The notes under the pieces are model-generated. The model saw only the letters and a program-made list of their open reading frames with translations, ran no database searches and was not told the DNA's origin. A DNA stretch of 34,039 bases from Rhodospirillales bacterium (GTDB lineage Bacteria > Pseudomonadota > Alphaproteobacteria > BOG-932 > Roseiterribacteraceae), in assembly GCA_003165335.1 (NCBI GenBank), contig PLTD01000204.1, positions 1-34,039 of the forward strand, read 5' to 3'. Position numbers and translations under genes: made by a program. Positions 8,382 to 27,025 of this stretch are shown here, piece by piece (the stretch's first letter is position 1; each line of letters begins with the position of its first letter).

Positions 8382-10229
8382 GTGAGCGATCAAAGTCGTG
8401 GGGCACCCCAATCCGGCCCGTCGCGGTGGAACACGCCCGACCGTCCAAGAAGCAAGAATTACGCTTATCTGCTGCGCACACTGGGTTTCATGCGACCCTA
8501 TGTTCGGCAACTCACCTACTTCTTCATCGCTCTGCTGGTCACATCCAGCGCGACGCTCAGCATGGGGTTGGGCCTCAAATTCCTGATCGACCGCGGATTG
8601 AGCGCCCGTGATCCGGCCTTGCTGAACGAAGGATTGGCGATCGTCCTTGCCATCGTCGTTGCGATCGCCGCGGGGACCTACGTCAGGTTCTATTATATTT
8701 CATGGGTCGGCGAACGTGTCGTCGCCGATATCCGAAAAGCGGTTTTCAGCCAGATATTGAGGTTAAGTCCCGGCTTCTTCGAAACGACAAAGACCGGCGA
8801 AATCCTCTCGCGCCTGACGACCGATACGTCGTTGCTTCAAACGGTGGTGGGCTCTTCGCTTTCCATCGCCATCCGCAACATATTCAGCCTGGTCGGCGGC
8901 GTGGTCATGCTGCTGATTACGAATGTGAAACTGGCTAGTCTGGTCGCACTGGTCGTACCCGCTGTAATCGTCCCGATAATTTGGTTCGGCCGCCGAGTGC
9001 GGAAACTGTCTCGGGAAAGTCAGGATCGCGTCGCCGATGTCGGTTCCTATGCCGAAGAAAACCTGAACGCCATTCGTACCGTTCAGGCCTATGTTCACGA
9101 GGACATCGATCGCGCGTTCTTCAATCTGAACGCCGAGCGAGCGCTCTCCACCGCGATGCGGCGCATTCTGGCCCGTGCCGCCATGGGCGGGATCGTCATC
9201 CTCCTGGTGTTCGGCGCAATCGCCGTGGTGCTGTGGGCGGGTGGTCGCGGCGTCATCGCCGGCGAGATATCGCCCGGAGACCTTTCGGCCTTCATATTTT
9301 ATGCCGTCACCGTGGCCGCAGCCGTCGGCTCGGTCAGCGAGGTCATGGGTGATCTGCAACGCGCGGCGGGCGCGACCGAACGGCTGGTGGAATTGTTGGA
9401 GACACAGCCCGATATTGCGGCCCCTGCCAATCCGAAGCCGATGCCCGTGCCGGCTCAGGGCTCGGTCGTCTTCGATAACGTTACCTTCCACTATCCGTCG
9501 CGGCCGGATACCGCTGCGTTGCATGGGCTCAATCTAACCGTAAGTCCGGGCGAACATGTTGCACTCGTCGGTCCATCGGGTGCGGGCAAGAGTACGGTTT
9601 TCCAGCTGCTGCTGCGCTTTTACGACCCGCAGGCCGGAGCAATTCGCATCGACGGGATGGATCTGCGGGAAGTGGATCCGCGCGACGCCCGTTCGCGCAT
9701 CGCCATCGTGGCGCAAGATCCGGTCATTTTCGCCGCCGATGCGATGGAGAATATTCGCTATGGACGACCGAGCGCCAGCGACGCCGAAGTCATCGCAGCA
9801 GCGGAAGCCGCGGCTGCGATGGAATTCATCCGCAAGCTGCCGGAGGGAATGAAAAGCTTTCTTGGTGAACGCGGACTGCGCTTGTCGGGCGGACAGAAGC
9901 AGCGCATCGCCATAGCCCGTGCGATCCTGCGCGATCCGGCGGTTCTACTTCTGGATGAAGCAACCAGCGCCCTCGACGCGGAGAGCGAGCGGCTGGTCCA
10001 GACAGCGCTGGAGCATCTTATGATCAGACGCACGACAATGGTGATTGCACATCGCCTGGCCACTGTCGTGAACGCCGACCGCATCGCGGTAATAGACGAC
10101 GGCCGGCTGGTCGCCACAGGACGTCACGATCAACTGCTGATCAGTAACCCTCTTTACGCCCGTCTCGCCGCACTTCAGTTTACCGCAGACGCGGGCCGCC
10201 AAGCGGTCACCGCCGATGAGGCCATCTAG
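8382..10229 (+). CDS. ABC exporter, fused transmembrane and ATPase domains (ABCB/MsbA type)
   Basis: The 615-residue half-transporter has an N-terminal six-helix type IV exporter domain (about 35-330) and a C-terminal nucleotide-binding domain. The latter shows Walker A GPSGAGKST (about 397-405), signature LSGGQKQR (about 501), Walker B VLLLDEATSALD and the switch His in IAHRLAT. It should homodimerise in the inner membrane and export a lipid or amphipathic molecule using ATP. The chosen start is a GTG with AAAGG upstream, giving MSDQSRGAP. Similar stand-alone ABCB proteins are common in sphingomonads and are often annotated as lipid or multidrug exporters. Nothing in the neighbourhood fixes the substrate. 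Confidence 0.94.
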   Translation: MSDQSRGAPQSGPSRWNTPDRPRSKNYAYLLRTLGFMRPYVRQLTYFFIALLVTSSATLSMGLGLKFLIDRGLSARDPALLNEGLAIVLAIVVAIAAGTYVRFYYISWVGERVVADIRKAVFSQILRLSPGFFETTKTGEILSRLTTDTSLLQTVVGSSLSIAIRNIFSLVGGVVMLLITNVKLASLVALVVPAVIVPIIWFGRRVRKLSRESQDRVADVGSYAEENLNAIRTVQAYVHEDIDRAFFNLNAERALSTAMRRILARAAMGGIVILLVFGAIAVVLWAGGRGVIAGEISPGDLSAFIFYAVTVAAAVGSVSEVMGDLQRAAGATERLVELLETQPDIAAPANPKPMPVPAQGSVVFDNVTFHYPSRPDTAALHGLNLTVSPGEHVALVGPSGAGKSTVFQLLLRFYDPQAGAIRIDGMDLREVDPRDARSRIAIVAQDPVIFAADAMENIRYGRPSASDAEVIAAAEAAAAMEFIRKLPEGMKSFLGERGLRLSGGQKQRIAIARAILRDPAVLLLDEATSALDAESERLVQTALEHLMIRRTTMVIAHRLATVVNADRIAVIDDGRLVATGRHDQLLISNPLYARLAALQFTADAGRQAVTADEAI

Positions 10230-11010: not shown

Positions 11011-11739
11011 CTAAGCATGTCGTCGTTCAAGCGGAAGATCGAAGGTGATGGTCGCACCATAGGCGCCGGGTGCGCCGGGATCGACACGCACCTTATCGAA
11101 GGTCAGGACGCGCGTAGCCAACGTAAAGCCCTCCTTCAGGTCGTGCGTAACCATAAAGACGGTAATCTGCTCCTCCCGCCAAAGACGCGTGATCAGCTCA
11201 TACATCTGCGTCTTGGTGCCGGGGTCCAGGGCGCCGAACGGTTCGTCGAGCAGCAAAAGCTTAGGCTTGCGTATCAAGGTCTGAGCGATGGCCAGACGCT
11301 GCTGCATGCCGCCGGAAAGCTGAGCCGGATATTTATTGCGCGAAGCGCTGAGCCCGACCGCCTCGATAACGCGTTCAGCCTCGGCAATCGCGCGTCGCCG
11401 CGATGCCCCGAACAGCTTTCCGAGCAACGGTGATCCGCCGAATTCGAGCCCCAAGATCACGTTCTGAACAACGGTGAGATGCGGGAAGACCGAATAGCGC
11501 TGGAACACGACACCCCGATCGGGGCCCGGTTCGGCCGGTAGCTTTTCGCCGTCCAGCAGTATCTCGCCGCGCGTCGGCTGCTCCATCGATAGAAGCAGGC
11601 GGAGAAATGTTGTCTTGCCGCAACCGGACGGTCCGATCAGAACACAGAACTCACCCGATGCGATTTCGAGATTGATACGCTCCAGGACGATCTGACCGGG
11701 ATATTCCATCCAAAGATTGCGTACCGAGACCTGGCTCAT
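11011..11739 (-). CDS. ABC transporter ATPase of the guanidine-linked uptake system (NitT/TauT type)
   Basis: The 242-residue product carries Walker A GPSGCGKTT, signature LSGGMQQRLAIA, Walker B LLLLDEPFGALD and the switch His in MVTHDLKEG, typical of nitrate/taurine/aliphatic-sulfonate importer ATPases. The start was set at MSQVSVRN, where the ATG overlaps the permease stop as ATGA. The longer open frame upstream is a different frame inside the permease gene. It is the last gene of a minus-strand operon: TonB receptor, binding protein, permease, ATPase. The operon begins with a guanidine-I riboswitch, so the substrate is inferred to be guanidine or a guanidino compound. ABC systems of this type are known beside urea/guanidine carboxylase genes. 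Confidence 0.93.
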   Translation of the reverse strand: MSQVSVRNLWMEYPGQIVLERINLEIASGEFCVLIGPSGCGKTTFLRLLLSMEQPTRGEILLDGEKLPAEPGPDRGVVFQRYSVFPHLTVVQNVILGLEFGGSPLLGKLFGASRRRAIAEAERVIEAVGLSASRNKYPAQLSGGMQQRLAIAQTLIRKPKLLLLDEPFGALDPGTKTQMYELITRLWREEQITVFMVTHDLKEGFTLATRVLTFDKVRVDPGAPGAYGATITFDLPLERRHA

Positions 11740-12560
11740 GACCCGTCCGTCGACGCTAACCAAGGGAAGCAACGGCGATTGAAGACGCGCAGCGCCCAAT
11801 CCATCATAAAGGCCAGGAAGGTAATCCAGGCGACATAGGGCAGAATTACATCCATCGCCATATAGCGCCGCATCAGGAATATCCTGTAACCCAGCCCATC
11901 CGTTGCGGCGATCGCCTCGGCGGATATCAGGAACAGCCACGCCGGTCCCAGCGACAGTCGGATCGCGTCGGCCAATCGCGGCGCCATCTGCGGAAGAACC
12001 ACGCGCAGGATGATCTGCCAGGTTGACGCCCCCAAGGTCTGCGCCTTGATCAGCAGTTCTCCAGGCATGTCGGTCACGCGCAAGGTCAGATCGCGGATCA
12101 GGAACGGCGTGATTCCGATGACAATAAGCACAACCTTGGACAGTTCATCCAAGCCGAAAACGATGAACAAGATCGGCAATATGGCCATCGGCGGCACCAT
12201 CGAGACCACCGCAATAAACGGCGACAGGCCGGAGCGCACATAGGGAATGACACCGGTCGCAATGCCGAAGACCAGCCCCAACAGCGTGGCTACGGCCAAA
12301 CCCATGGCAAGCCGGCCCAGGCTGGCCAATGTGTCGACCCACAGCAATATCTCGCCGGTCCGCATATCCTGGGCGAAGGCCATGCGGTGGATGGCAGCGC
12401 CAAAGGCCGCCAGCCCCGGCAACAGCTTGTCGTTCGGATTGTCGGCCAGGCGTAGTGCGGAAAAGATGAAATAGGCGATGATGGCGAGGATGAACGGAAA
12501 CGCGCCCCAGGCGATCCGTCCGCCGCGGTCAGGTCGCCGATTGATGATGCGGCGGCTCAT
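11736..12560 (-). CDS. ABC transporter permease of the guanidine-linked uptake system (SsuC/TauC-like)
   Basis: The 274-residue inner-membrane protein has about six hydrophobic segments. Its cytoplasmic EAA-type loop (KAQTLGASTWQIILRVVLP) contacts the ATPase. This is the layout of NitT/TauT-family permeases. It starts 7 bases after the binding-protein stop and overlaps the ATPase start by 4 bases, so the three genes are coupled. Function is inferred from family and from location within the riboswitch-headed operon. The match to guanidine rather than urea rests on the riboswitch and on the adjacent assimilation operon, not on the permease sequence itself. Confidence 0.92.
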   Translation of the reverse strand: MSRRIINRRPDRGGRIAWGAFPFILAIIAYFIFSALRLADNPNDKLLPGLAAFGAAIHRMAFAQDMRTGEILLWVDTLASLGRLAMGLAVATLLGLVFGIATGVIPYVRSGLSPFIAVVSMVPPMAILPILFIVFGLDELSKVVLIVIGITPFLIRDLTLRVTDMPGELLIKAQTLGASTWQIILRVVLPQMAPRLADAIRLSLGPAWLFLISAEAIAATDGLGYRIFLMRRYMAMDVILPYVAWITFLAFMMDWALRVFNRRCFPWLASTDGS

Positions 12561-12567
12561 GCGGGCC

Positions 12568-13656
12568 TCAAAGCTTGTGGGCCGCGGCGAGCTTCATAAA
12601 TTCGTCATCGAAGCGCAGTTTGACATTCCCCTTGTCCCCTAAAATCTGCCCGCTGGGGAACTGGATGCCGACGACATCCATCGAAGGCGCCCCCTGCCCC
12701 AGCAACCCGTGATCGAAAGAAAACTTCCTTACCAGATCCATCGTTTTGGGCAGGTCCGCACCGTCGGCAAACGCCACGGCCTCCGTCGGGTCGTAGAACA
12801 TCCTGGTGGTCGTTAATTGGCGATCGAACCCGGCGATGTCAGTACCCGAATCGGTTGCCATCTGTTGGTGCGATGTATGGCTGGCAGCGTCAGCCGCGGA
12901 CATCGTGCTCATAACCTCGTACCAGGCCCCGGTCAGCGCCATCGCGAGTTTGGGATTATCCTTCAGGACGGCAGTCTTCACCCCCATCATGTCGATGATC
13001 TCGCCCGGCACCTGCGAGGAGTCGAAGACCTTTTCCGCCAGAGGGTTTTTCAGCACCTCGCCAACCTGCGGATTCCAGGTCACGACAGCACCGACGCCCC
13101 CGGTTCCGAAGGCGGCAACGATATCCGCATCCGATGTATTCACCAGCGTGACGTCGCGCTCGCTCAGATGGACCGTGTCCAGTGCCCGGGCCAGCAGATA
13201 TTGCGATACCGACAATTCGACTAGATTGACCTTGCGCTTGGCGATGTCCGCCAGCTTGGGATGGTCGGACGGATTGGCGCGTTTCAATATGACCGCGTCA
13301 TTGCCGTTCGAGTAATCGCCCAGAATGATCGCCGTCGTGTCGACGCCGCCCGCCGACGGAATTGTGAGGCAATCCATGTTGGTGAGGACGACCCCGTCGA
13401 AGGCGCCCGCCGTATATTGATTGATCGACTCCACATAATCGTTGACCTCGACCAGCTCGATCTGGATGCCGTATTTATCGGCCCATTTTTTCAAGATGCC
13501 GGCCTCGGCTGCATAGGGCCAGGGCATCCAGCCGACATAGATCGACCAGGCGATCCGGAACGATGTCTTAGGCGCCGCCTCTGCCTGCGGTGACGCGGCC
13601 GCCAGACCGGTCACGCACAGCAGTGCGGCTATCCACAATGGCACGGGCTTGCGCAT
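12568..13656 (-). CDS. Periplasmic substrate-binding protein of the guanidine-linked ABC transporter
   Basis: The 362-residue product starts with a Sec signal peptide (MRKPVPLWIAALLCVTGLAAA, likely cleaved near AEA). A type II periplasmic-binding fold of the NMT1/THI5-like NitT/TauT kind follows (IAWSIYVGWMPWPYAAEAGI, MDCLTIPSAGGVDTT). It resembles the urea-carboxylase-region binding proteins (TIGR03427-type), which were named for urea before guanidine was recognised as the substrate of these loci. It would capture ligand in the periplasm and deliver it to the permease. It begins 26 bases downstream of the TonB receptor. The order receptor, binding protein, permease, ATPase gives a complete two-membrane uptake route in one transcript. 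Confidence 0.93.
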   Translation of the reverse strand: MRKPVPLWIAALLCVTGLAAASPQAEAAPKTSFRIAWSIYVGWMPWPYAAEAGILKKWADKYGIQIELVEVNDYVESINQYTAGAFDGVVLTNMDCLTIPSAGGVDTTAIILGDYSNGNDAVILKRANPSDHPKLADIAKRKVNLVELSVSQYLLARALDTVHLSERDVTLVNTSDADIVAAFGTGGVGAVVTWNPQVGEVLKNPLAEKVFDSSQVPGEIIDMMGVKTAVLKDNPKLAMALTGAWYEVMSTMSAADAASHTSHQQMATDSGTDIAGFDRQLTTTRMFYDPTEAVAFADGADLPKTMDLVRKFSFDHGLLGQGAPSMDVVGIQFPSGQILGDKGNVKLRFDDEFMKLAAAHKL

Positions 13657-13682: not shown

Positions 13683-16079
13683 TTACGGGTTGAACCGAAC
13701 CTTTGCCGTGATTCCGATCGTCAGCGGCCTGACAGTATAGCCCTCGACGACGGTGTTGATTTCCGGACGTTGGATGATCGTCCGGTCGTCTCCCAGATTC
13801 TTGGCGTAAAGCGATATATCGTACATTTCGGTCTCAAACCCGAGGCTGGCGTTCACCACGCCGTACGACGGATTGTAGTAGTTCGAATTACCGATCTGAT
13901 AGCTGCCGTTGGAGCGCCCGGTGAACGTGTAATCGGTGCGGACGGTCAGCGTCATATCGCTGTTCAGCGGATAGTCATACTGAACCGAGCCTGTGAAAGT
14001 GTCATAAGGCACGTCGATCAGGCGCTGCCCGACTGCGACGGTCGAGGCGTTGTCCGTCTGGGTAATCGCGGCATGCTGGAAGCTGGCGGTGGCCCCTAAA
14101 GTCAGGCCGGGAATGGGCCGATAGCTCGCCTCAAGCTCACCGCCGTAAATATCGGCATCGCCGATGTTCAAGGTTACGTAATAGCCGCAAGTCGGCAGGT
14201 AGATCTGCTGCTGGATATTGCTCCACTGGGTGTAGTAGGCCGAACCGTCGATCGACACTTTATTGTCGTCCAGCCGGTTCTTCGATCCGACCTCATAGGT
14301 CCATAGCTTGTCCGAAGCGAACTTAAGCGGGTCGGACGTTATCCCGAGATTGGAGAAATCGCCCGCGCAAACCGTCGTCGGTCCGAAGGGCGCAGGACTG
14401 GGCTCCGGTCCGCCCAGCCGATAGCCTTTGGAAATCGACCCGTAAACATTCGATGATGGATCGACGTCATAGGTCATCGTGAACTTGGGCGTGAAAGCAT
14501 AGGAATGAGACAGTTGGTTGAACGGGCTGAAATTGCCAATCTGGTAGAAGCCGTAGGTCGTGAAATTCACCACATCGCGAGCGATCAGGTAACGCGCGCC
14601 GACCGCCGCATGCAGGTTAGGCAGGATGTCATAGTCCGCCTGCCCGAAAATCGCATACTGCCTTTCGTCATATTTTTTCTCATCAGCCTCATCGACATCG
14701 TTCGGGAACAACTGCGTAATTCCCGGCCCTCCGTAAAAGTCGTTAACCGGGCTTTGCTCGAGCGGTACGCCGTAAATCTGTTTGAAGGCAGCGTTGATTC
14801 CGGGGATCTGCTGGAAATTCGTGTTGTGAATCCATTGGTCCGAATAATAGAGACCCGCCACCCATTTCAGCGGCAACTCGCCTTCTTCGGGCAGGTGAGA
14901 CGATAGCCGCAGTTCCTGCGAAATCTGCCCGTAACGCGTCGTGTATTTAACGGGCGAGCGCAGATTGCCGATTATGGAATCGTCCTTCGCCGGGTTGGGC
15001 GCGAAGTTCGGATAGTTGGGATCGGGCGGAAGCGTATCCAAAAACGCCTCGGCGAACAGCGTGCTGTTATAGTAAGTACCGTCCTGTTGCCGGGCAAAAT
15101 CGCGCCAGAAATAACCGGTGACCGACGTCAGGTCGGCAAATCCCAAATCATGGGTGACGGTAAGGCTCGGCAGGAACATCGTATCCCGGCCATATTCCAC
15201 GACCTGTTTATCCTGCTTCCACAAGCCCTGGGCGGGATAGAAAGCCGCGTTATCGTCGGCCTTGTCGCGTTGGAAAAACAAGCCGGGCGTTACGGTCGTG
15301 TCATCGTCCACAAGCAGCTTGCCGGTGAGACGGAACATCAAAGCGCGCTCGTCATTGACGCCAGACTGGGCCAGTTCCCCGCTCTGCGTATAGTGATCGA
15401 TGTAGCCGCTATCGAGACTATAGCCCAGACTGGCCCGGATCGCCGCCTTACCCTCCACGATCGGCACATTGACGACAGCGCCTTCGTTGTAATTGACGCC
15501 GCCGTGGATGGTCCCCGACAAATCCGTCGAAAGCATACCGCTATAATTGTCGACGTCAGGCTGCTTGGTGACGAAGCGGATCGTCCCGCCCATCGAACTT
15601 GCGCCGTAGAGCGACCCCTGCGGGCCGCGCAGCACCTCGATCCGATCGATATCGAAGAGCTTTGGCTGGCTGGAACCGTCGAAGAAGTTTTTGACCGTGA
15701 TCGAGACATCGTCGAGATAGATGCCCACAGTGGCGGAACCCGAGGTCGAGCTGATGCCGCGGATCGAGATATTGTCCAGTCCCTCGCTGGCACCCAGCGA
15801 GTTGAACGAGACGCCGGGAATTGCGCGGGCGATATCGTCGTAGTTTGCAATCTGCTTTGCCTGGATCTCATAGCTGCTGAGGGCGGATATGCTGATCGGG
15901 ATATTTTTCAGATTTTCCGATCGCTTCTGCGCCGTGACGACAACCTCCTGCAGTCCGCTGTCGTCAGCTGGTGCGGCAGCGGCAGGATCGGCATCCGCCG
16001 CGAGTACAAGCCTATTGGGAATTGCCGCAAGCAACGCCATCAGGCTGACAGAAAGCAACGATGTTTCGCGAAATCCCAT
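13683..16079 (-). CDS. TonB-dependent outer-membrane receptor, first gene of the guanidine uptake operon
   Basis: The 798-residue product has a signal peptide (MGFRETSLLSVSLMALLAAI, cleavage near VLAAD), a TonB-box-like stretch (LQEVVVTAQKRSE), a plug domain with ISIRGIS and RGPQGSLYGASSMGG, and a long beta-barrel ending in ITAKVRFNP. Such receptors pump ligands across the outer membrane using ExbB/ExbD/TonB energy. The start at MGFRET was chosen because AGGAGG lies nine bases upstream; an upstream in-frame start at 16115 would place the Shine-Dalgarno inside the gene. A guanidine-I riboswitch and a sigma-54-type promoter precede it directly. This links the receptor to guanidine, which is unusual because guanidinium is small enough for porins. 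The ligand is inferred, not seen. Confidence 0.94.
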   Translation of the reverse strand: MGFRETSLLSVSLMALLAAIPNRLVLAADADPAAAAPADDSGLQEVVVTAQKRSENLKNIPISISALSSYEIQAKQIANYDDIARAIPGVSFNSLGASEGLDNISIRGISSTSGSATVGIYLDDVSITVKNFFDGSSQPKLFDIDRIEVLRGPQGSLYGASSMGGTIRFVTKQPDVDNYSGMLSTDLSGTIHGGVNYNEGAVVNVPIVEGKAAIRASLGYSLDSGYIDHYTQSGELAQSGVNDERALMFRLTGKLLVDDDTTVTPGLFFQRDKADDNAAFYPAQGLWKQDKQVVEYGRDTMFLPSLTVTHDLGFADLTSVTGYFWRDFARQQDGTYYNSTLFAEAFLDTLPPDPNYPNFAPNPAKDDSIIGNLRSPVKYTTRYGQISQELRLSSHLPEEGELPLKWVAGLYYSDQWIHNTNFQQIPGINAAFKQIYGVPLEQSPVNDFYGGPGITQLFPNDVDEADEKKYDERQYAIFGQADYDILPNLHAAVGARYLIARDVVNFTTYGFYQIGNFSPFNQLSHSYAFTPKFTMTYDVDPSSNVYGSISKGYRLGGPEPSPAPFGPTTVCAGDFSNLGITSDPLKFASDKLWTYEVGSKNRLDDNKVSIDGSAYYTQWSNIQQQIYLPTCGYYVTLNIGDADIYGGELEASYRPIPGLTLGATASFQHAAITQTDNASTVAVGQRLIDVPYDTFTGSVQYDYPLNSDMTLTVRTDYTFTGRSNGSYQIGNSNYYNPSYGVVNASLGFETEMYDISLYAKNLGDDRTIIQRPEINTVVEGYTVRPLTIGITAKVRFNP

Positions 16080-16184
16080 AGTCCGAAGCCTCCTGTGCAA
16101 GGTGCGGAATTGCACCTTCGAGAGACTTTTCGCGTCTAGGACTTAACCCCCACTCGGGTGATCATCCCGGGGCGCGAAGGCCTC

Positions 16185-16300
16185 CCCGACATTGGATCTC
16201 CCGGGCTTTTATCCCGCCGTGTGTCCAGCAGCGGCGCGCTGCTGGATGGCATCTCTCGGACCAGACATCCTCACCGGACCGGAACCCTAGACGCCCATTA
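16185..16300 (-). ncRNA. Guanidine-I riboswitch (ykkC type), leader of the TonB receptor/ABC uptake operon
   Basis: On the minus strand the conserved ykkC elements appear in order: TCTAGGGTTCCG (about 16277-16288), CTGGTCCGAGAGATGCC (about 16248-16264), a variable 9-bp stem (CCAGCAGCG/CGCTGCTGG), then ACACGGCGGGA, AAAAGCCC and GGGAGATC. These blocks match the guanidine-I class, which senses free guanidinium and usually turns genes on. The aptamer starts almost at the transcription start predicted from the sigma-54 element upstream. About 105 bases separate it from the receptor ATG. That spacer has a CGGG/CCCG hairpin and a perfect AAGGTGC/GCACCTT stem just before the Shine-Dalgarno. Confidence 0.95.
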
Positions 16301-16311
16301 CCCTTAAGCTA

Positions 16312-16326
16312 GCAAAGATCGTGCCA
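16312..16326 (-). promoter_or_regulatory. Sigma-54 -24/-12 promoter for the TonB receptor/ABC operon
   Basis: The minus strand reads TGGCACGATCTTTGC, matching TGGCAC-N5-TTGC exactly, with correct spacing between the GG and GC dinucleotides. A transcription start about 12 bases downstream falls near 16300, immediately at the 5' edge of the riboswitch aptamer, which supports the call. Sigma-54 promoters need an enhancer-binding activator such as NtrC. No clear NtrC dyad was identified upstream, only half-site-like GGTGCA. Confidence 0.8.
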
Positions 16327-16430: not shown

Positions 16431-18257
16431 TTAAGCAGAGTTTGACCGGCCGGCAGAAAGGCTCTCCCGGCCGAGCCAATTGAGCCAACCGCCGAACATT
16501 GTGATGTCCTCCGAATTGGCTACGGCGTAAGCCTCGGCGAGGAAGCTTTTCACTTGCGTACCGTCTTCCAGCGTCACAGTCCCGATACCCAGCGGCGGCG
16601 GAATTTCGGCCACGAAACTGCCGAAGGCGGCAAAATCCAGCTCCCATATTTCAAGTTCGATCAGCCCCTGGCCCAGCCCGTCATAGACCAGTCCCGGTTT
16701 TGCCGGCACCGTTCCGTCCAACGCATAAAGACTATAGCCGGGAGCTGATCTAGCCGACTTGACCAGACGCGCCTTGCGGTTCGTCAACTGCCAATTCAAA
16801 GGCTGTCCCGACAGATGCGCACCGACGACAGCGAGTGTGACCCCAGTCGGCTTGATCGGCGCAGCCGGCGCTTCCGGCGGAAGCGCCCGACCTGTTCCAC
16901 CGACGCTCGCGTCCGGCATCGCCCGGTGCAGCCGATCGGCCAACCGCGCAATTTTGTAATCTTCGAATGCGCGCCCCATCAACGTGACGCCGAACGGCAG
17001 ACCGCCCGGCCGAAAGCCTGCCGGAACGGCGATGGCGGACAGATCCATCAGATTCGCGAAATTGGTATAGATGCCGAGGTTGCTGTTGAGGTTGACCGGA
17101 TCGGCTAGCACTTGGTCGATCCGATAGGTCGTGCCTGTCGTAGGCAGCAACAGAACATCCATCCGCGCCCATTGCGCCTGCGCGGTGCGGATCAGTGCCG
17201 CGAGGCGGTAGAAGGACTGAAACCCATCGACCGCCGATATGCGCTCCGCACTGCCGATGATATCCCAGACAACAGGATGGACGGCGCCTGGATTGTCGAA
17301 TTTGAACGTCCGCAGCGCCGCCAGCCGCTCGGCAACCCAAGGACCCTGATAGAGCAGTTTAGCGGCATCTCGGAATGGGCTGAAATCGATCGCTACTTTC
17401 GTTCCCCCCAACGACGTCAAACGGTCGACAGCCTCGCCATATAATGCTGCCGCCGCATCATCACCGAAGAACTCGAGTCCATTTTCCGGCACGCCGAACG
17501 TGAAATCCGCGGGCAACTCGGCGTCAATTCCATGGGGTGCGGGACGCGCATAATCGTCTTCCTTGTCGAAACCTTGGGCCAAAGCCAGGACACGAAGAGC
17601 CTCACCCGCGGTTCCGGCAAAAATCGAAACGCAATCCTGGCTACGGCAAGCCGGAACGACGCCGCGCGTGCTGATCAGACCCTTTGTCGGCTTCAGTCCA
17701 ACGATGTTATTGAAACCGGCCGGGACCCGGCCCGAGCCCGCGGTATCGGTGCCGAGAGCAAAGCTTACGAGCCCGGCAGCCATTGCGACCGCGGAACCGG
17801 AACTCGACCCGCCGGAGATATAGGCCGGATCGAAAACAGAGGTGCAAATACCGTAGGGAGAGCGGGTTCCGACAAGGCCTGTGGCGAACTGATCGAGGTT
17901 CGTTTTCCCGACGACGATCGCGCCGGCGGCCTCAAGCTTTTCGACGGCCGTGGCCGAGCGATTGGGAATATAGGCGAACTCGGGACAGGCCGCGGTCGTC
18001 TCCAACCCGACGACATCGATATTGTCCTTAACCGCGAATGGGATGCCGAACAGCGGCATCGCCTCACCCGCATCCTGGCGCTGTCGAATCTCTGCGAGCT
18101 TTACGGCAAGCTGATCACGCGAAGCCAAGCTTATCCAAACCGGCCTTTCTCCATGCGCGGCGATGGCGTCCATCACTTCATCGAAGACCTGTTCGGGCGT
18201 AACGCTCCCGCAAGCATAGGCTGCTGAAAGTCCGGCAATATCGAGTGGTCGCGTCAT
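16431..18257 (-). CDS. atzF: Allophanate hydrolase
   Basis: The 608-residue product has an N-terminal amidase-signature domain with the Ser-cisSer-Lys triad: Lys77 in FAVKDNID, cis-Ser151 in GGSSSGSA and nucleophile Ser175 in DTAGSGR. The spacing equals that described for AtzF of Pseudomonas. A C-terminal allophanate hydrolase domain (about 470-600) follows. The enzyme hydrolyses allophanate to ammonia and CO2 (through N-carboxycarbamate). It is the last gene of operon A, 13 bases after the carboxylase, where it consumes the allophanate made by the carboxylase and the deiminase. It is a separate protein, not fused to the carboxylase as in yeast urea amidolyase. Confidence 0.95.
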   Translation of the reverse strand: MTRPLDIAGLSAAYACGSVTPEQVFDEVMDAIAAHGERPVWISLASRDQLAVKLAEIRQRQDAGEAMPLFGIPFAVKDNIDVVGLETTAACPEFAYIPNRSATAVEKLEAAGAIVVGKTNLDQFATGLVGTRSPYGICTSVFDPAYISGGSSSGSAVAMAAGLVSFALGTDTAGSGRVPAGFNNIVGLKPTKGLISTRGVVPACRSQDCVSIFAGTAGEALRVLALAQGFDKEDDYARPAPHGIDAELPADFTFGVPENGLEFFGDDAAAALYGEAVDRLTSLGGTKVAIDFSPFRDAAKLLYQGPWVAERLAALRTFKFDNPGAVHPVVWDIIGSAERISAVDGFQSFYRLAALIRTAQAQWARMDVLLLPTTGTTYRIDQVLADPVNLNSNLGIYTNFANLMDLSAIAVPAGFRPGGLPFGVTLMGRAFEDYKIARLADRLHRAMPDASVGGTGRALPPEAPAAPIKPTGVTLAVVGAHLSGQPLNWQLTNRKARLVKSARSAPGYSLYALDGTVPAKPGLVYDGLGQGLIELEIWELDFAAFGSFVAEIPPPLGIGTVTLEDGTQVKSFLAEAYAVANSEDITMFGGWLNWLGRESLSAGRSNSA

Positions 18258-18270
18258 TTGGCCCTATCCC

Positions 18271-21200
18271 TTATTCGGGACGAAAAACAACGAGCGTTTG
18301 ACCGGTCGTGACAGCCCGCCCCTCGGCACAGCGCATCTCGACCACCATTCCATCGGCAGGAGCCGAAACCTGCATTTCCATCTTCATCGATTCCACGATC
18401 ACCACGGTCTCGCCGGCTTTGACTTGCTGTCCGGCTGCTACCGGTATCCGCCAAACGCTGCCCGATACCGGGCTGGCGATTGCATCGCATCCTGGCGGAA
18501 GCTCGTCCGCATCCTGATCGATATGGGCTTCCGGAAGATCGGCTGCGTAGCTGATTTGACCCGAAGCCTCCCACCTTGCCCGTTCGGCCTCAAACGCGCT
18601 CTGCTGGCGTAACTTGGCAGCCCGGATGCCGGTTTCATTTTCTTCGAGGAAAATCCGGTAGTCCTTCAAGCTGAAGGTTTTTTCGACAATGTCGAGGCGC
18701 GCGCGCCCATGCAAAAAATCAGCGCGGAACTTAAGCAGATCTTCCCCGCTGACAGGATAGAATTGAACCTGATCGAAGAACCGCAGCAGCCAAGGGCGAT
18801 CCTTCTCAAATTCCGCCGTAACCCGGTAAGTGTTCCACATCTGGCAAGTGCGGCCGACGAACTGGTACCCGCCCGGTCCTTCCATGCCGTAGACACACAG
18901 ATAAGCCCCGCCGATACCAACGGCATTTTCCGGAGTCCAAGTGCGCGCCGGGTTATATTTGGTCGTGACCAAGCGATGCCGCGGATCGACCGGTGTGGCC
19001 ACCGGGGCGCCCAGATAGACGTCGCCCAAACCCATCACCAGATAGCGCGCTTCAAAGACAATCCGCTTCACATCCTCAATCGATTCCAACCCGTTGATGC
19101 GGCGGATAAACTCGATGTTGCTGGGGCACCATGGCGCATCCGCGCGGACCGACTGCATGTATTTTGCAATCGCAAGCTCAGTCGCTTCATCGTCCCAAGA
19201 CAATGGCAACCGGACAATCCGCGTGGGGACCTGCATATCTTCGATGCCGGTTAGGGATTCCTCGGCGGTCCACAGTATCTCGAGCAATCGGTCGAGCGAA
19301 AGAACGCGGCAGTCGTAGTGGATTTGCAATGACCGGATGCCGGGCGTCAGCTCGATGATGCCGGGGACCGATTGCCCTTCGACCCAACCCATTAAGGCAT
19401 GGACCCGCAAGCGCAATTCCAGGTCGAGAACAAGCGGCCCATACTCGACGAGAAGATATTTATCGCCCGCACGGCGATAAACGACCGCGGGTCGCGCCCC
19501 CTCTTGCGGCATTTCGGAAAGAATCGGGGCATCGATTCCGCTTCCGACGAGAAGCGGCAGTTCGGTTGCCTTCGGCTCGCGCAATTCGCAGACCAGTATG
19601 TCCTGGCGAGCCTCGGCCACCGCAGCCTCTGTCGGCGTCAGGCGGCGGAAACGCACCCTGTCGTTCGCACGCAGCTGCCCCATCTTCCAAAGCTCGGACT
19701 GAACGATCGTAACGGGACAGACGAAACCGCCAAGAGACGGACCGTCGGGACCCAATATGACGGGCATATCGCCGGTGAAATCTACGGCGCCGATTGCATA
19801 GGCATTGTCATGGATATTCGAAGGGTGAAGCCCGGCCTCTCCACCGTCCGACCGCGCCCATTTCGGCTTTGGCCCGATCAGGCGGACGCCTGTTCGGCTG
19901 GAATTATAGTGGACCTCCCAAGTGGCAGCGAAAAATTCCGCGATATCATCTTCGGTGAAGAAATCCGGGGCGCCATGAGGGCCATAGAGCACGCCCAATT
20001 CCCATTCATGAGAGATTGCGGGCTGCAGATGCGCCGGAATCCCGCGCGGACTCTGTCCGATCGCGCCATCGCCCAGATGGAGAACATCGCCCGGGATCAG
20101 CGCCCGTCCGCCGTGGCCCCCGAACTTGCCCAGCGTGAAGGTAGAGCGACTGCCCAGATATTGCGGTACCTCAAAACCGCCGCGGACAGCCAAATAGGCG
20201 CGACAGCCGGTATCCTTAACCGCGCCGATACGTAACATCGACCCGGCAGATATGCGGATAGGTGACCAGAAGCCAACCGACTTGCCATCGACTTCGGCGT
20301 TCATTTCCCCACCGGTCAGGCAGATGATTGCCGCCGTGTTGAATTTCAGAGTTGGGCCAGAAACCGTCAGTTCCAACGCCGCCGCCCCGGGCGGATTGCC
20401 GACGCCCAGGTTCGCAAGGCGGAATGAGACGTGATCCATTGGCCCGGAAGGGGGCACACCGACATTCCAATATCCGACCCGGCCGGGATAATCCTGGATC
20501 GTCGTCTGAGTGCCGGCTACCAGCACTTCAATCGTATTGGGCCTATAGGCGAAGTCTTCCAGGGCCCGCGTGGTCATGCTTCCGCCAGTGAATATCGGAT
20601 CGGCCACAAGCTGGCGCAGATAATCGAGATTGGTCTCGATACCGGCAATTACGGTGGAGGACAAAGCCGAACGAAGCTTCTCCAACGCCTCTGACCGATC
20701 CCTGCCAGTGACAATGATCTTAGCCACCAGCGGATCGTAGAAGGGCGTGATCTCGGTACCGTCCTCGACCCAGGTCTCGATCCGAGCACCGTCCGCAAAG
20801 CGCGCCCGGGTCAGCAGACCCGAAGACGGACGAAAGTCGCGCGCGGGATCTTCGGCATAGAGCCTCACCTGAATCGATGCGCCTTGAGGCGCCGGCTGGG
20901 ACAGTGAGAAAGCCTCCCCTGCCGCTTGGCGGATCATCCATTCGACCAGGTCTATGCCGGTGACCTCTTCGGTCACCCCATGTTCGACCTGAAGGCGCGT
21001 ATTGACCTCGAGAAAATAGAACTCCCCGGTTGCTGTGTCATAGATGAACTCGACCGTTCCTGCGCTGGCATAGCCGACAGCCTCGCCGAGCCGTACCGCC
21101 GTCGCCCACAAGGCCGCCCGAGTTGCCTGCGTCAGGCCCGGAGCCGGCGTTTCTTCGATAATCTTCTGGTTGCGGCGCTGCGTCGAGCAATCGCGCTCGC

Positions 21201-21870
21201 CCAGGGCGACGACCTTACCTTTTCCGTCGCCGAATATCTGAACTTCGATGTGCCGGCCACGCTCGACATATTTCTCCAGGAAAATGCCGGCCTCATCGAA
21301 ATTCCCGCGCGCCAAGCGGGCGACCCGGCCGAACAGCTCTTCCATCCGGTCTTCGCTTCGGCAGAGCTGCAGGCCAATACCGCCGCCGCCCGCCGTGCTT
21401 TTGATCATCACCGGATAGCCGATGCGCCGCGCCTCGATCTTGGCATGTGAGACGTCGCTCAGCAGTCCGCTACCCGGTGCAAGCGGCACACCCGCTCGCG
21501 CAGCCAGATCTCGGGCCGAATGCTTTAGACCAAAAGCCCGCATCTGCTCAGGCGTCGGCCCGATGAAGGTAATGCCGACTGCCGCGCATAATTCAGCGAA
21601 ACCCGGATTCTCCGAAAGAAACCCATATCCGGGATGGATGGCATCGGCACCGCAAGCCCGGGCGATTTCCAAAATCTTGTCGGCGCGAAGATAGCTTTCA
21701 GCGACCGGCGCCGGCCCGAGACAGACCGATTCCCCCGCCTGGGATACATGCAGCGAATTGGCATCGGCCTCGGAATAAACGGCGACCGATCCGATCCCCA
21801 TCCGATCCAGCGTGCGGATGATGCGGCAGGCGATTTCGCCGCGATTGGCGATAAGTACTTTCTTAAACAT
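18271..21870 (-). CDS. Biotin-dependent guanidine (urea) carboxylase
   Basis: The 1199-residue single-chain carboxylase has a biotin carboxylase domain (about 1-445; IANRGEIACRI, STAGGGGIGLQ ATP-grasp loop), a carboxyltransferase region made of AHS2/KipA-like (about 449-745) and AHS1-like (about 795-1000) parts, and a C-terminal biotin carrier domain with ESMKMEM, biotinyl Lys1163. Family members carboxylate urea or guanidine with ATP and bicarbonate. Guanidine is the preferred call because the operon is headed by a guanidine-I riboswitch and includes both carboxyguanidine deiminase-type genes, a combination shown in other bacteria to act on guanidine. Specificity residues were not checked by alignment. 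It lies 8 bases after the preceding gene and 13 before atzF. Older annotation would read urea carboxylase. Confidence 0.93.
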   Translation of the reverse strand: MFKKVLIANRGEIACRIIRTLDRMGIGSVAVYSEADANSLHVSQAGESVCLGPAPVAESYLRADKILEIARACGADAIHPGYGFLSENPGFAELCAAVGITFIGPTPEQMRAFGLKHSARDLAARAGVPLAPGSGLLSDVSHAKIEARRIGYPVMIKSTAGGGGIGLQLCRSEDRMEELFGRVARLARGNFDEAGIFLEKYVERGRHIEVQIFGDGKGKVVALGERDCSTQRRNQKIIEETPAPGLTQATRAALWATAVRLGEAVGYASAGTVEFIYDTATGEFYFLEVNTRLQVEHGVTEEVTGIDLVEWMIRQAAGEAFSLSQPAPQGASIQVRLYAEDPARDFRPSSGLLTRARFADGARIETWVEDGTEITPFYDPLVAKIIVTGRDRSEALEKLRSALSSTVIAGIETNLDYLRQLVADPIFTGGSMTTRALEDFAYRPNTIEVLVAGTQTTIQDYPGRVGYWNVGVPPSGPMDHVSFRLANLGVGNPPGAAALELTVSGPTLKFNTAAIICLTGGEMNAEVDGKSVGFWSPIRISAGSMLRIGAVKDTGCRAYLAVRGGFEVPQYLGSRSTFTLGKFGGHGGRALIPGDVLHLGDGAIGQSPRGIPAHLQPAISHEWELGVLYGPHGAPDFFTEDDIAEFFAATWEVHYNSSRTGVRLIGPKPKWARSDGGEAGLHPSNIHDNAYAIGAVDFTGDMPVILGPDGPSLGGFVCPVTIVQSELWKMGQLRANDRVRFRRLTPTEAAVAEARQDILVCELREPKATELPLLVGSGIDAPILSEMPQEGARPAVVYRRAGDKYLLVEYGPLVLDLELRLRVHALMGWVEGQSVPGIIELTPGIRSLQIHYDCRVLSLDRLLEILWTAEESLTGIEDMQVPTRIVRLPLSWDDEATELAIAKYMQSVRADAPWCPSNIEFIRRINGLESIEDVKRIVFEARYLVMGLGDVYLGAPVATPVDPRHRLVTTKYNPARTWTPENAVGIGGAYLCVYGMEGPGGYQFVGRTCQMWNTYRVTAEFEKDRPWLLRFFDQVQFYPVSGEDLLKFRADFLHGRARLDIVEKTFSLKDYRIFLEENETGIRAAKLRQQSAFEAERARWEASGQISYAADLPEAHIDQDADELPPGCDAIASPVSGSVWRIPVAAGQQVKAGETVVIVESMKMEMQVSAPADGMVVEMRCAEGRAVTTGQTLVVFRPE

Positions 21871-21878
21871 CCCGGGCG

Positions 21879-22523
21879 TCAGACCGGATTCCAGATCAGA
21901 ACTTCGATCGGGGTGGGGTTATAGGCATTGCACGGATTATTGAGCTGCGGACAGTTCGAGATCAGCACGATGACATCCATGCAGGCGCGCATCTCGACAT
22001 ATTTTCCGGGGCCGCTGACCCCATCGGCGAAGGTCAGGCCGCCTTGCGGGGTGACCGGCACGTTCATAAAGAAATTGATGTTGTGGGTGATGTCGCGCTT
22101 GGTCAATTTCATGTCGTCATGCTCAGCCACCGCCAGGAGCCAACTGTCGCGACAGGCATGCATGGTGCGCTTTTCCAGATCATAGCGAACGGTATTGGAC
22201 TCAGTCGCGCATGCGCCGCCCAGCGTGTCGTGCTTCCCGACCAGGTCGGCGACGATTTTCAGCATCACGTTGCATTCGGTGGATAGAAGCTTGGAGCCCA
22301 ATCCAAGATAGACATTGCCCTGGGCGCGGATCGTATCGACCGCGCTATAGCGCTCAGCCGGATCGTCGGCGCGAAAAAACAACGTATCGGCCGCCTGGTT
22401 TCCCTCCAGATCGACAATACGGAATATCTGATCCTTCTCGACCGTTCTGATCCAATAATCGCCTGCAGGAACGACCTGACGGAATATTGCAGCGTCCGGG
22501 TTCAACATACTTTCCTTAAGCAT
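21879..22523 (-). CDS. Carboxyguanidine deiminase subunit (DUF1989; urea carboxylase-associated protein UAAP2-like)
   Basis: The 214-residue product belongs to the DUF1989 family. It has an [15 protein letters not shown] start motif, [15 protein letters not shown] in the middle and a late [17 protein letters not shown] segment with a probable metal-ligand Cys. In characterised loci two such paralogues form a heteromeric enzyme (CgdA/CgdB) that deiminates carboxyguanidine to allophanate plus ammonia. This is the shorter paralogue. Whether it corresponds to the A or B subunit was not decided, so no symbol is given. Only two bases separate it from the upstream paralogue and eight from the carboxylase. 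Confidence 0.9.
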
Positions 22524-22525
22524 CT

Positions 22526-23263
22526 CTATTCCCCCTGATGCGAAGCGCAGAGGTGGTAGATTTCGTTATTGAGGAAACCTCGACCGTTCTCAGGGCGGGA
22601 ATTCAAACAGAAATCATCCTCAGCCACAGGCGCAGCTTTGCGGATGCGCAGCGTCACCGGTTTGCGGGGATATTCGGCCGCCGGATTCATCGGGTGGGGG
22701 CACGTGTGCAACAGCACCAGCGTATCCATCTCAAACCTGAGATCGAAGGATGAGCCGGCAGATGAATTGGCCGGATCGAAGACCATCGCCCCGTCGGCGG
22801 TAGCCGCGACCTTGCTGAACCAGTTCACATTCGCAGCAAGGTCGCGTCGGCCTAGCCCGTATTTTCCGCCCTCAACAAGAAAGGCGTCATGGCCGTTCTG
22901 GGTCCAGTCGTTCTTGTAATCCTGGTAGCTCCTGTTGCCCCACCGCTCGGCGACTATCGCCTTGTTCGCGTTGCCCGACACCGTGTCGTGCCAGCCGACC
23001 GTATCGCCGACGATCGAGCAAAATATCCGTCCCATGTCCGAATAGAGGCAGTGGCCGCGCGTCAGCCTGAAGGTATGCTGACATTTCAGCGTATCGGGTG
23101 CGTTGTAACGTTCCAGGGGATTGTGCGGATTATAGAAGAGCATCCCGACATTGGCGCCGCCCTGGTCGTCGATGAGGGTGAGCGCTGTCCCCCGGCGGGC
23201 CGTGAACGACCAATGTTTGCCGCCCTCGATAGCGGTCTCATAGAGAATCGCCCCATCAGTCAT
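22526..23263 (-). CDS. Carboxyguanidine deiminase subunit (DUF1989; urea carboxylase-associated protein UAAP1-like)
   Basis: The 245-residue product is the longer DUF1989 paralogue: [16 protein letters not shown] near the N-terminus, [14 protein letters not shown] centrally and [11 protein letters not shown] near the C-terminus, with Cys/His residues suited to metal binding. With its neighbour it would deiminate carboxyguanidine to allophanate. It is the first structural gene of operon A. Its ATG has only a modest own Shine-Dalgarno (AAAGG) and overlaps the stop of a 19-codon leader ORF that has a strong one, so translation may depend on coupling. A guanidine-I riboswitch lies about 175 bases upstream. 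Subunit letter not assigned. Confidence 0.9.
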
Positions 23264-23432: not shown

Positions 23433-23545
23433 ATATTCGATCTCCCGGGCTTTTGTCCCGCCGTGTGTCCGCAGGCGCTGCGCCCGTGGATGGCATCTCT
23501 CGGACCAGTCATCCTCGCGGATCGGAACCCTAGACGCCTGCTGGG
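23430..23545 (-). ncRNA. Guanidine-I riboswitch (ykkC type), leader of the guanidine assimilation operon
   Basis: The minus strand carries the same conserved blocks as the copy near 16.2 kb: GGCGTCTAGGGTTCCG, CTGGTCCGAGAGATGCC, a variable GC-rich stem, ACACGGCGGGACAAAAGCCC and GGGAGATC. The two aptamers are nearly identical in the conserved parts and differ in the variable stem. The 5' edge coincides with the transcription start predicted from the sigma-54 element at 23555-23569. The regulated genes are the deiminase subunits, carboxylase and allophanate hydrolase, which match the known guanidine-I regulon. Confidence 0.95.
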
Positions 23546-23863: not shown

Positions 23864-25537
23864 ATGTCTGCCACCGATGCGCCCCCCCATTACACCGCGG
23901 CCCGGGCATTGGTCGAAGCCCTGCTGGTTCAGGGCGTCGACCATGTCTTCTGCGTTCCGGGAGAGAGCTATCTGGCGGTGCTGAACGCGCTCGCGGATTA
24001 TCGGGATCGGATCCGCGTCATCACCTGCCGGCACGAAGCTGGAGCCGCGAATATGGCGGAGGCCTATGGCAAGCTGACCGGCCGTCCAGGCATCTGCATG
24101 GTGACCCGCGGTCCCGGCGCGACGCACGCCAGTGTCGGCGTGCATACGGCGCAACAGGATTCGACGCCGATGATCCTGTTCGTCGGCCAAATAGCACGGG
24201 GCGATCGCGGTCGGGGTGCCTTTCAGGAGGTCGACTACACGCAGATGTTCGGGTCGCTCGCAAAACTGGCGATCGAACTGGACGATTCCAAGCGCGTCAA
24301 TGAAATCGTCCATCGCGCTTTTTCGACCGCCCTTCAGGGGCGGCGCGGCCCCGTTGTGGTCGCGCTGCCGGAGGATATGCTGATTGAGGACGTTGTCCCG
24401 TCTCCAAGCCTTCGAGTGGGACCCCGCCCTTCGGGGCTAGCCCCAAGCGTCGCTTCGCAGATCGCCGAACGGTTGGAGGCGGCAGAGCGTCCGTTGCTGC
24501 TTTTGGGTGGCAGCGGCTGGGATAATGAAGCACTTTCGGCACTTAAAGACTGGGCGGAAATATTGCGACTTCCGGTGGTCCTTTCCTTTCGCCGGAAGGA
24601 CCTGTGGGACAACGAGCACGCCTGCTATGTCGGCGACCTTGGACTGGGCACCAATCCCAAGCTGCTCGAGCGCATAGGGGCAGCCGATCTGATATTGGCC
24701 ATCGGTGCGCGTCTCGGCGAAAACGCATCGCAGGGCTATAGCCTACTGACCCAAGAGGAAGCCGCCGAAAGACTGATCCATATTCTGGCCGAACCCGGCG
24801 AAATCGGCCGGGTCTGGCCCACGTCGATCGGCGCTGTGGCGAACCCGTCCGAAGCCGCTTCAACCATCGCCCAAATTTCGATTCGGCGCCGATGGGAAGC
24901 TTGGCGCGCCGCCGCCAGACTGGATTACGAGAATTTTTCGGCGCCGATAAAAGTGTCGGGAGAGGTCAATCTTTCGGAGATATTTCAGCAGTTTCAAGCG
25001 CTGCTCGGACCCGACGCAATCATTTGCAACGGCGCAGGCAACTATGCGGCCTGGCTCCATCGTTTCCATCGGCACCGAACCCGGCCGTCGCAGCTGGCGC
25101 CCACCAGCGGCGCGATGGGGTATGGCCTGCCGGCATCCATCACTGCCAAACTGCTCTATCCCGACCGCGATGTGATTGCAGTGGCAGGCGACGGCTGCTT
25201 TCTGATGATCGGCCAAGAATTGGCGACTGCCGTCCAGAACGAAGTCAATATTATTGTCGTAGTCGTCGACAACGGTTCATACGGTACAATTCGCATGCAT
25301 CAGGAAACCCAGTACCCCGGCCGGACGATTGCGACTGACCTGCGAAACCCGGATTTCGTCGCCTTCGCCCGCGCTTTCGGCGCCTGGGCGACACGGGTCG
25401 AACGCTCCGAGGCGTTCCCGGCCGCGCTTGCGCAGGCGCGCAAAGCCGGCCTTCCTGCCCTCATTCATCTCGTGACTTCGATCGAAGATATTGCGCCAGG
25501 ACGCAGCATGAGCGACCTCCAAGCACGCACTCGATAA
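23864..25537 (+). CDS. Thiamine pyrophosphate-dependent enzyme (acetolactate synthase/decarboxylase superfamily)
   Basis: The 557-residue product has the three-domain layout of the POX/acetolactate synthase family: an N-terminal pyrimidine-binding domain with the activating Glu58 in CRHEAGAANMAEAYG, a central domain with LLLGGSGW, and a C-terminal diphosphate-binding domain with GDG (442-444) and DN (469-470) forming the Mg-TPP motif. Members decarboxylate 2-oxo acids or join or cleave C-C bonds. No small regulatory subunit gene (ilvH type) is near, so biosynthetic acetolactate synthase is unlikely. It is divergent from the guanidine operon and precedes an amidohydrolase by 36 bases, so those two probably form an operon. 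Exact reaction unknown. Confidence 0.9.
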   Translation: MSATDAPPHYTAARALVEALLVQGVDHVFCVPGESYLAVLNALADYRDRIRVITCRHEAGAANMAEAYGKLTGRPGICMVTRGPGATHASVGVHTAQQDSTPMILFVGQIARGDRGRGAFQEVDYTQMFGSLAKLAIELDDSKRVNEIVHRAFSTALQGRRGPVVVALPEDMLIEDVVPSPSLRVGPRPSGLAPSVASQIAERLEAAERPLLLLGGSGWDNEALSALKDWAEILRLPVVLSFRRKDLWDNEHACYVGDLGLGTNPKLLERIGAADLILAIGARLGENASQGYSLLTQEEAAERLIHILAEPGEIGRVWPTSIGAVANPSEAASTIAQISIRRRWEAWRAAARLDYENFSAPIKVSGEVNLSEIFQQFQALLGPDAIICNGAGNYAAWLHRFHRHRTRPSQLAPTSGAMGYGLPASITAKLLYPDRDVIAVAGDGCFLMIGQELATAVQNEVNIIVVVVDNGSYGTIRMHQETQYPGRTIATDLRNPDFVAFARAFGAWATRVERSEAFPAALAQARKAGLPALIHLVTSIEDIAPGRSMSDLQARTR

Positions 25538-25573
25538 AGGCGGATTTCAAGCCAATCAAAGGGGAAAGCTGTA

Positions 25574-27025
25574 ATGACCGGTAAAACAAAGGCTGCACAG
25601 GTGCGCGATCAGGTCGACCACCCGATCATCGATGCCGACGGACATTTCGTCGAAATCGGACCGATTCTGGACGACGAGCTTGCGACCTATCTCGAAGAAA
25701 CCGGCGGCAAAGAATTGCGGGACCGCTATTTGGCCAGCGCGTCCCGGCCGTTCAATACCGCCAATGTGCTGGCTAACAGGGATGACCCTGTCGTCCAGCA
25801 GGAATGGCGGTCGATGCCGTCCTGGTGGGGCTGGCAGACCAAGAACACGCTCGACCGCGCGACTGCACACCTGCCCAAGCTGCTCTATCAACGTCTCGAC
25901 GAGATGGGCATCGATTTCACCCTGATGTACCCCTCGGCCGTCTTGGGCTTGATCCATACCGAAGGCGAAATGGGCGCGGCGCTTGCGCGGGGCGCCAACC
26001 GCTATCTGGCGAGCATCTTCAAACCCTATAAGGACAGGATTGCGGTCGGCGCGATCATTCCGATGAGCAGGCCCGACCTCGCAATTGCCGAGCTGGAATA
26101 TGCCGTCAAGGAACTGGGCGCGAAGACTGCAGTCATTGCCGGGTTCGCACGCAGGCCCTTAGGCGACAAGCCGGCCAACGGACCGCAAGCTGTCCGAGCA
26201 GACCATTACGGTATCGACAGCCCTTATGACTATGACCCGTTCTGGGCGAAATGCGTCGAGCTGGGCGTGGCCCCGGTCAGCCACAGTTCGCACCTGCATT
26301 TGCGCGTTTCGCGCTCGGTTTCCAACTATGCCTACAACCATATCGGGGCTTTGGGCACATCGCATGAGTCACTGGCCAAGTCGCTTTTCATGGGCGGGGT
26401 GACCCGGCGCTTTCCGACCCTGCGCGTGGGGTTTCTCGAAGGCGGCGTCGCTTGGGCCTGCGCCCTTTATGCAGACCTGATCGGTCATTGGAGCAAGCGA
26501 AACGCCGAGGCGATTCTGGAGCTGGACCCCGACAGGCTCGATGTCGACGGGCTGATGAAATATGTCAAAGACTTTGGCGACGAGACTATGGTGGGGCAAC
26601 TCGACCGCCTGCGCCAATTCTTCTCGCAGCCGGCGGCGCGTCCCAAGCAGTTGGATGAGTTCTCGCGCGCCTTGATCCGCAAGGCCGAAGATATCCGCGA
26701 TCTGTTCGTTCCCAATTTCTATTTCGGCTGCGAAGCAGACGACCCGCTGGTCGGGTGGGCGTTCGCCGACAAGGTCAATCCGATGGGCGTTCAGCTTCGC
26801 GCCATGATCGGCTCTGATATCTCGCACTGGGACGTTCCCGACATGACCAAGCCTGTCGAGGAGGCTTATGAGATGGTCGAACACGGCAAGATCAGCGAGG
26901 CGAATTTCCGGGATTTCACTTTCACCAACCCGCTGCGGCTCCACGCCGGGATGAACCCGAAGTTCTTCGAGGGTACGGTCTGCGAAGCGGCGGCTGGGAA
27001 GGCGTTGGCTGCCGGTCTTGGCTGA
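25574..27025 (+). CDS. Amidohydrolase family 2 protein (possible metal-dependent hydrolase or decarboxylase)
   Basis: The 483-residue product fits the PF04909 group. It has an N-terminal IIDADGHFVE in place of the usual H-x-H strand, a mid-region SHSSHLH segment, RFPTLRVGFLEGGVAW and a late GSDISHWDVPD with the conserved Asp. Family members include metal-dependent decarboxylases of aromatic acids as well as hydrolases. The first metal motif reads D-x-D-x-H, as in many members of unknown function. AAAGGGGAAAG precedes the start. It follows the TPP enzyme by 36 bases and is convergent with an MFS transporter. A role in a shared catabolic route is inferred. Confidence 0.9.
   Translation: MTGKTKAAQVRDQVDHPIIDADGHFVEIGPILDDELATYLEETGGKELRDRYLASASRPFNTANVLANRDDPVVQQEWRSMPSWWGWQTKNTLDRATAHLPKLLYQRLDEMGIDFTLMYPSAVLGLIHTEGEMGAALARGANRYLASIFKPYKDRIAVGAIIPMSRPDLAIAELEYAVKELGAKTAVIAGFARRPLGDKPANGPQAVRADHYGIDSPYDYDPFWAKCVELGVAPVSHSSHLHLRVSRSVSNYAYNHIGALGTSHESLAKSLFMGGVTRRFPTLRVGFLEGGVAWACALYADLIGHWSKRNAEAILELDPDRLDVDGLMKYVKDFGDETMVGQLDRLRQFFSQPAARPKQLDEFSRALIRKAEDIRDLFVPNFYFGCEADDPLVGWAFADKVNPMGVQLRAMIGSDISHWDVPDMTKPVEEAYEMVEHGKISEANFRDFTFTNPLRLHAGMNPKFFEGTVCEAAAGKALAAGLG

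Follow-up and report, generated by a model that had tools for sequence, protein, structure and literature searches.

What does a TonB-dependent outer-membrane receptor import when its gene stands directly behind a guanidine riboswitch? Were the answer guanidine itself, energised uptake would concern a nutrient thought to pass the outer membrane by pore diffusion. We analysed this question in a stretch of 34,039 nucleotides (contig PLTD01000204.1), hereafter referred to as the window. The preliminary description had taken the host for a sphingomonad, and this origin was rejected, because the GTDB order of the host comprises only five genomes in the collection searched, and the host is hence not a member of the Sphingomonadales; its closest named relative is the MAG RYN_452, labelled Rhodospirillales.

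The gene order on the minus strand is guanidine-I aptamer, receptor, binding protein, permease and ATPase. The aptamer (16301–16196, minus strand; RF00442, 90.9 bits, E 2.4e-15) ends 116 bases before the receptor ATG at 16079, confirming the receptor gene as the first one behind the switch. The receptor gene (13683–16079, minus strand) is an intact reading frame of 798 aa, running uninterrupted from ATG 16079 to 13683, with AGGAGG upstream of the start; of the span 13683–16326 originally assigned to it, the receptor proper stands and reaches up to 16079, while the upper limit takes in the leader. Both the plug domain and the 22-strand-type barrel of TonB-dependent transporters were found, based on Pfam (Plug, PF07715, 73 bits; TonB_dep_Rec_b-barrel, PF00593, 112 bits) and on the predicted structure (AF2 pTM 0.81), for which the top PDB match in Foldseek was FyuA (TMt 0.87). 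In addition, a hydrophobic N-terminus and a TonB-box-like motif, EVVVTAQKR, were recognized by eye on the translation.

The three genes that follow the receptor on the same strand encode an ABC importer, as had been described. The periplasmic binding protein (12568–13656, minus strand) matched TIGR03427 with 522 bits (cutoff 334). This model bears the name 'putative urea ABC transporter substrate-binding protein', and it represents the importer component that accompanies guanidine-type carboxylases; a sequence search detected no solved-structure relative of the protein. The permease (11736–12560, minus strand; PF00528) is of the Tau/Ssu type, and the ATPase (11011–11739, minus strand; PF00005) has a probable start at ATG 11739, picked from its overlap with the permease gene. 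The receptor and importer genes would be co-transcribed.

A second guanidine-I aptamer (23440–23544, minus strand; RF00442, 83.8 bits) heads an operon of four catabolic genes. Both aptamers exceed the RF00442 gathering score of 63 and match the model over its full length (positions 1–107 of 107). The operon encodes two DUF1989 subunits of carboxyguanidine deiminase, namely, CgdA (UAAP1; 22526–23263; TIGR03425, 331 bits) and CgdB (UAAP2; 21879–22523; TIGR03424, 326 bits), followed by a carboxylase of the type annotated as urea carboxylase (18271–21870; TIGR02712, 1871 bits) and an allophanate hydrolase, AtzF (16431–18257; TIGR02713, 793 bits), all on the minus strand. The TIGR03425, TIGR03424 and TIGR02713 matches of the genes adjoining the carboxylase were above cutoff. 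An Asp at position 1584 of the Kluyveromyces lactis enzyme, together with Asp rather than Asn at position 1330, separates guanidine from urea carboxylases (PMC11410670). Alignment to 5i8i/3va7 placed D697 of the window carboxylase at KlUC 1330 (Asn in the yeast urea enzyme) and D950 at KlUC 1584, and the same two aspartates were present in the carboxylases of a congener and of a distant MAG. A urea carboxylase was therefore rejected, and the presence of both signature residues leads us to read the genes as a complete cluster for the assimilation of guanidine. Divergent from the catabolic operon lie genes for a thiamine-diphosphate enzyme (PRK08199 type) and an Amidohydro_2 protein (23864–27025, plus strand).

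The segment between the first aptamer and the receptor gene (16080–16195, minus strand) forms a leader or expression platform with an AGGAGG ribosome-binding site, and shares homology with the leader that precedes cgdA. The two leaders aligned with a score of 109, compared with a mean of 44.9 (sd 5.2, maximum 60) for 500 dinucleotide shuffles, and the homology, for which an alignment of five leaders was also made, runs through the ribosome-binding site including AGGAGG. From this homology, the catabolic leader was probably duplicated, giving the receptor operon a switch of its own. The region of the ribosome-binding site was base-paired in the single minimum-free-energy structure calculated for the leader, which suggests control of the receptor at the level of translation. 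The guanidine-I aptamers are expected to act in the activating sense, as on-switches.

The known guanidine clusters of Raoultella, Klebsiella, Pseudomonas and Vreelandella (PMC12186494, PMC11410670, PMC12508155) share with the window the same enzymes, the Tau-type importer family, the riboswitch classes and the carboxylase aspartates. The window differs from them by the TonB receptor inserted between the riboswitch and the binding-protein gene, and these papers name only inner-membrane importers. To determine how common this insertion is, we surveyed 71 further guanidine-I aptamer neighbourhoods of Alphaproteobacteria and other Pseudomonadota, covering approximately 9 kb on each side except in a few contigs that end earlier. 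Homologs of the binding protein and of the permease were each found near 60 of the 71 aptamers, and homologs of the guanidine carboxylase near 48. In contrast to the window, the binding-protein gene is usually the first gene after the aptamer. A homolog of the window receptor was detected by tblastn at none of the 71 loci, and none carried a TonB receptor in a switch-controlled position, the one receptor found by HMM search lying on the opposite strand. Guanidine-I-controlled clusters do not normally include such a receptor, and a general association between TonB receptors and the guanidine-I switch was rejected.

A search for TonB receptors beside guanidine riboswitches, as had been proposed, was nevertheless positive in two other genomes. 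The congener (G001) keeps the order aptamer, receptor and binding protein, with 86% identity for the receptor and 90% for the binding protein. In bog_994, a MAG labelled Burkholderiales (PLEY01000184), a guanidine-I aptamer precedes cgdA and cgdB, and a guanidine-II aptamer (36.5 bits; gathering score 32) then precedes the guanidine carboxylase, the allophanate hydrolase and a receptor, which is the last gene and lies at the contig end (aptamers at 9958–9835 and 8138–8096 of locus L136, both on the minus strand). This receptor is 53% identical to that of the window. The preliminary description had made its reading depend in part on whether any related genome keeps the receptor beside the switch; the congener does so, and the distant bog_994 has an orthologous receptor under a switch of the guanidine-II class. 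In a tree of 20 receptors, those of the window, the congener and bog_994 formed one clade with support of 100/100, whereas the paralogs from the same genomes (42–48% identical) are located elsewhere and fell outside this clade. A list of clade-specific residues was drawn up from the three guanidine-linked sequences. Since orthologous receptors occur in the clusters of the window and congener and of bog_994, the clade is linked with guanidine genes in two lineages far apart from each other, and via two different aptamer classes. TIGR03427 was not found in bog_994, which may be incomplete as a MAG.

These results bear on whether a receptor-rich genome had simply put one of its TonB receptors behind a duplicated leader, without functional meaning. 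The host genome does contain at least 28 TonB receptors, as counted with one query, and an unrelated receptor cluster landed mid-way in the guanidine locus of the congener. However, the receptor and binding protein are conserved in the congener, bog_994, a distant genome poor in TonB receptors, has an ortholog in a guanidine operon controlled by the other riboswitch class, and separate receptor clades stand at guanidine clusters in sphingomonads. Such a local accident is therefore highly improbable and largely refuted by recurrence, and chance placement was rejected on the basis of this recurrence and of the clade structure of the receptor tree.

Some features of these two genomes were recorded in addition. 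The cluster inserted in the congener lies on the opposite strand between the guanidine carboxylase and the riboswitch–receptor operon (L038, 5395–9996; L036, 1–9040), and encodes a Pot-type ABC importer, a LysR protein, a metallo-beta-lactamase-fold protein, a second TonB receptor and an SDR; the carboxylase of the congener has no allophanate hydrolase after it. In bog_994, the use of guanidine-I for cgdA–cgdB and of guanidine-II for carboxylase–hydrolase–receptor places two riboswitch classes for one ligand in one cluster.

Guanidine clusters of sphingomonads were reached by searching plasmid records with the carboxylase. Their carboxylases carry the same signature residues as that of the window, and no riboswitch was detectable in these clusters. 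In Novosphingobium pentaromativorans US6-1, a TonB receptor of a third clade lies directly behind atzF. A second clade stands at the guanidine cluster in eight of the nine plasmid records that contain a member of it, the exception being RL4: its gene points away from that of the binding protein in Novosphingobium EMRT-2, N. capsulatum, N. humi, PP1Y, KACC 22771 and Sphingobium TomTYG65, where the two are divergent, and lies a few kb further off in N. resinovorum. Mapping of the guanidine label on a tree of 30 receptors required three changes, all forced by supported branches, hence at least three changes of association, which we read as repeated recruitment of TonB receptors. That these represent three or more independent recruitments of dedicated energised outer-membrane transporters for guanidinium into assimilation clusters is a tentative reading, to which we give slightly less than an even chance. 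The second clade also pairs with a sulfotransferase gene, including in RL4 and Pseudoalteromonas, where guanidine genes are absent nearby. The sphingomonad case is the weaker evidence for the ligand, because this clade accompanies the sulfotransferase with or without guanidine genes. The gene near the clade is of a TPR/sulfotransferase family (L141, 15498–17102; L143, 15193–16770; L155, 11504–13087; L156, 12524–14077). The sphingomonad guanidine operons also encode a CopG/NikR-like regulator (L141, 6000–6524; also in L142–L147), with 97.3 bits to the NikR model (cutoff 105); this protein may serve as a guanidine-sensing regulator in place of an RNA switch.

The presence of such a regulator has some bearing on a different ligand, namely, an iron chelate, nickel or a cofactor such as biotin, needed in larger amount during growth on guanidine, the receptor being co-regulated on that account. 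The NikR-like gene in sphingomonads, the biotin requirement of guanidine carboxylase and the best fold matches, which are siderophore receptors as for any TonB receptor, would agree with this. Nevertheless, the guanidine carboxylase pathway works without nickel, and the window contains no NikR-like gene. Furthermore, all 23 NCBIfam matches of the receptor to siderophore, heme and B12 equivalogs or subfamilies were far under cutoff (126 against 223.5 for TIGR01783; 52 bits against 600 for BtuB), and the receptor lies in an importer operon directly ahead of the binding-protein gene. We consider an unrelated ligand quite improbable.

The receptor is tied to guanidine import genes, as had been claimed, both by its place at the head of a guanidine-type importer operon and by the recurrence of the association in other genomes. 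From the gene arrangement, we consider it marginally probable that the receptor is induced by guanidine and serves in the TonB-dependent transport of guanidinium, or of a guanidino compound very similar to it. Guanidine would seep slowly into the cytoplasm, bind both aptamers and switch on both operons together; the receptor would then carry guanidinium across the outer membrane and deliver it in the periplasm to the binding protein whose gene comes next. Passage through the inner membrane would follow by way of the ABC importer, and ammonia and CO2 would be formed by guanidine carboxylase, carboxyguanidine deiminase and allophanate hydrolase. The two-membrane path and its control by guanidine are read from the sequence, whereas the transported molecule and the activating sense of the switch are inferred. 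The switch in front, the full pathway, the recurrent receptor linkage, the homologous leader and the lack of a cutting enzyme support this transporter, while the small size of guanidinium, which is small enough for porins, the absence of the receptor from nearly all guanidine clusters, the sulfotransferase pairing in sphingomonads and the lack of TIGR03427 in bog_994 count against it.

The receptor might instead import a larger molecule, such as an arginine- or agmatine-type compound, a guanidinylated sugar or natural product, a biguanide or guanylurea, that is cut outside the cluster, the released guanidine being sensed and used. Substrates of TonB transport are usually molecules whose size or scarcity makes porins inadequate (PMC11658791), and another guanidine operon contains an enzyme set that demethylates methylguanidine (PMC12508155). 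In addition, sister receptors have amidases, polyamine-type binding proteins and a SIS–SIS–PfkB set as neighbours, which suggests that small nitrogenous organic compounds are the substrates of the wider receptor family. However, no enzyme able to cut a larger guanidino compound and release guanidine was found among the genes of either operon, and what the cluster does encode, pathway enzymes and binding protein alike, is the usual set for free guanidine. A guanidine-yielding ligand is therefore rather unlikely, and uptake of guanidine appears the favoured reading, the larger compound being less likely.

Porin scarcity had been proposed as the reason for energised transport. In the host, three Porin_4-like matches and at least 28 TonB receptors agree with this, and the genome is of the porin-poor, TonB-rich Caulobacter type. 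As a full explanation it is weakened by bog_994, in which a strong Porin_4 porin is encoded and TonB receptors are few; since that genome is not porin-poor, energised uptake may be better explained by scarcity of guanidine or by a larger ligand. In porin-poor Caulobacter, TonB transport of maltose and N-acetylglucosamine is established (PMC11658791, PMC4659666). The receptors concerned, MalA (maltodextrins) and NagA (N-acetylglucosamine), resemble that of the window in the plug and barrel, in linkage to a catabolic operon and in transporting a nutrient that supplies carbon or nitrogen, not iron, and they accept small substrates such as maltose (PMC11658791, PMC4659666). The window receptor is unlike them in its proposed substrate, a 59-Da cation, and in its control by a guanidine riboswitch.

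TonB transporters under riboswitch control are known for cobalamin (BtuB) and thiamine, with the aptamer directly before the receptor gene, and these switches repress the receptor gene when the nutrient is in ample supply. The guanidine-I aptamer of the window is expected, in contrast, to turn the receptor gene on, and the metabolite and receptor family also differ. No TonB–guanidine link was found in the open full-text literature, in agreement with the earlier claim, and a 2025 review of guanidine biology names inner-membrane importers only. The association of receptor and guanidine genes is real and recurrent, and apparently undescribed, and guanidinium is a candidate ligand.

The natural concentration and sources of guanidine are open questions (PMC12186494). 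If the receptor carries guanidinium, the expenditure of proton-motive force and ATP would mean that the habitat offers little guanidine and that scavenging it pays; alternatively, the true environmental form would be a larger guanidino compound, and either answer is informative. Transport of guanidinium would widen the range of TonB substrates to a very small organic cation, with a riboswitch in control. The path over both membranes would then be complete and of high affinity, for a compound that ranks among the smallest organic nutrients known to be so carried. Recurrence in cultured Novosphingobium and Sphingobium makes the function accessible by gene removal. Among the sister receptors, one (L043, 3076–10225) lies behind genes for a LacI/IF-2B-domain protein, two SIS-domain proteins and PfkB, an arrangement that resembles a utilization set for fructosamine (Amadori compound).
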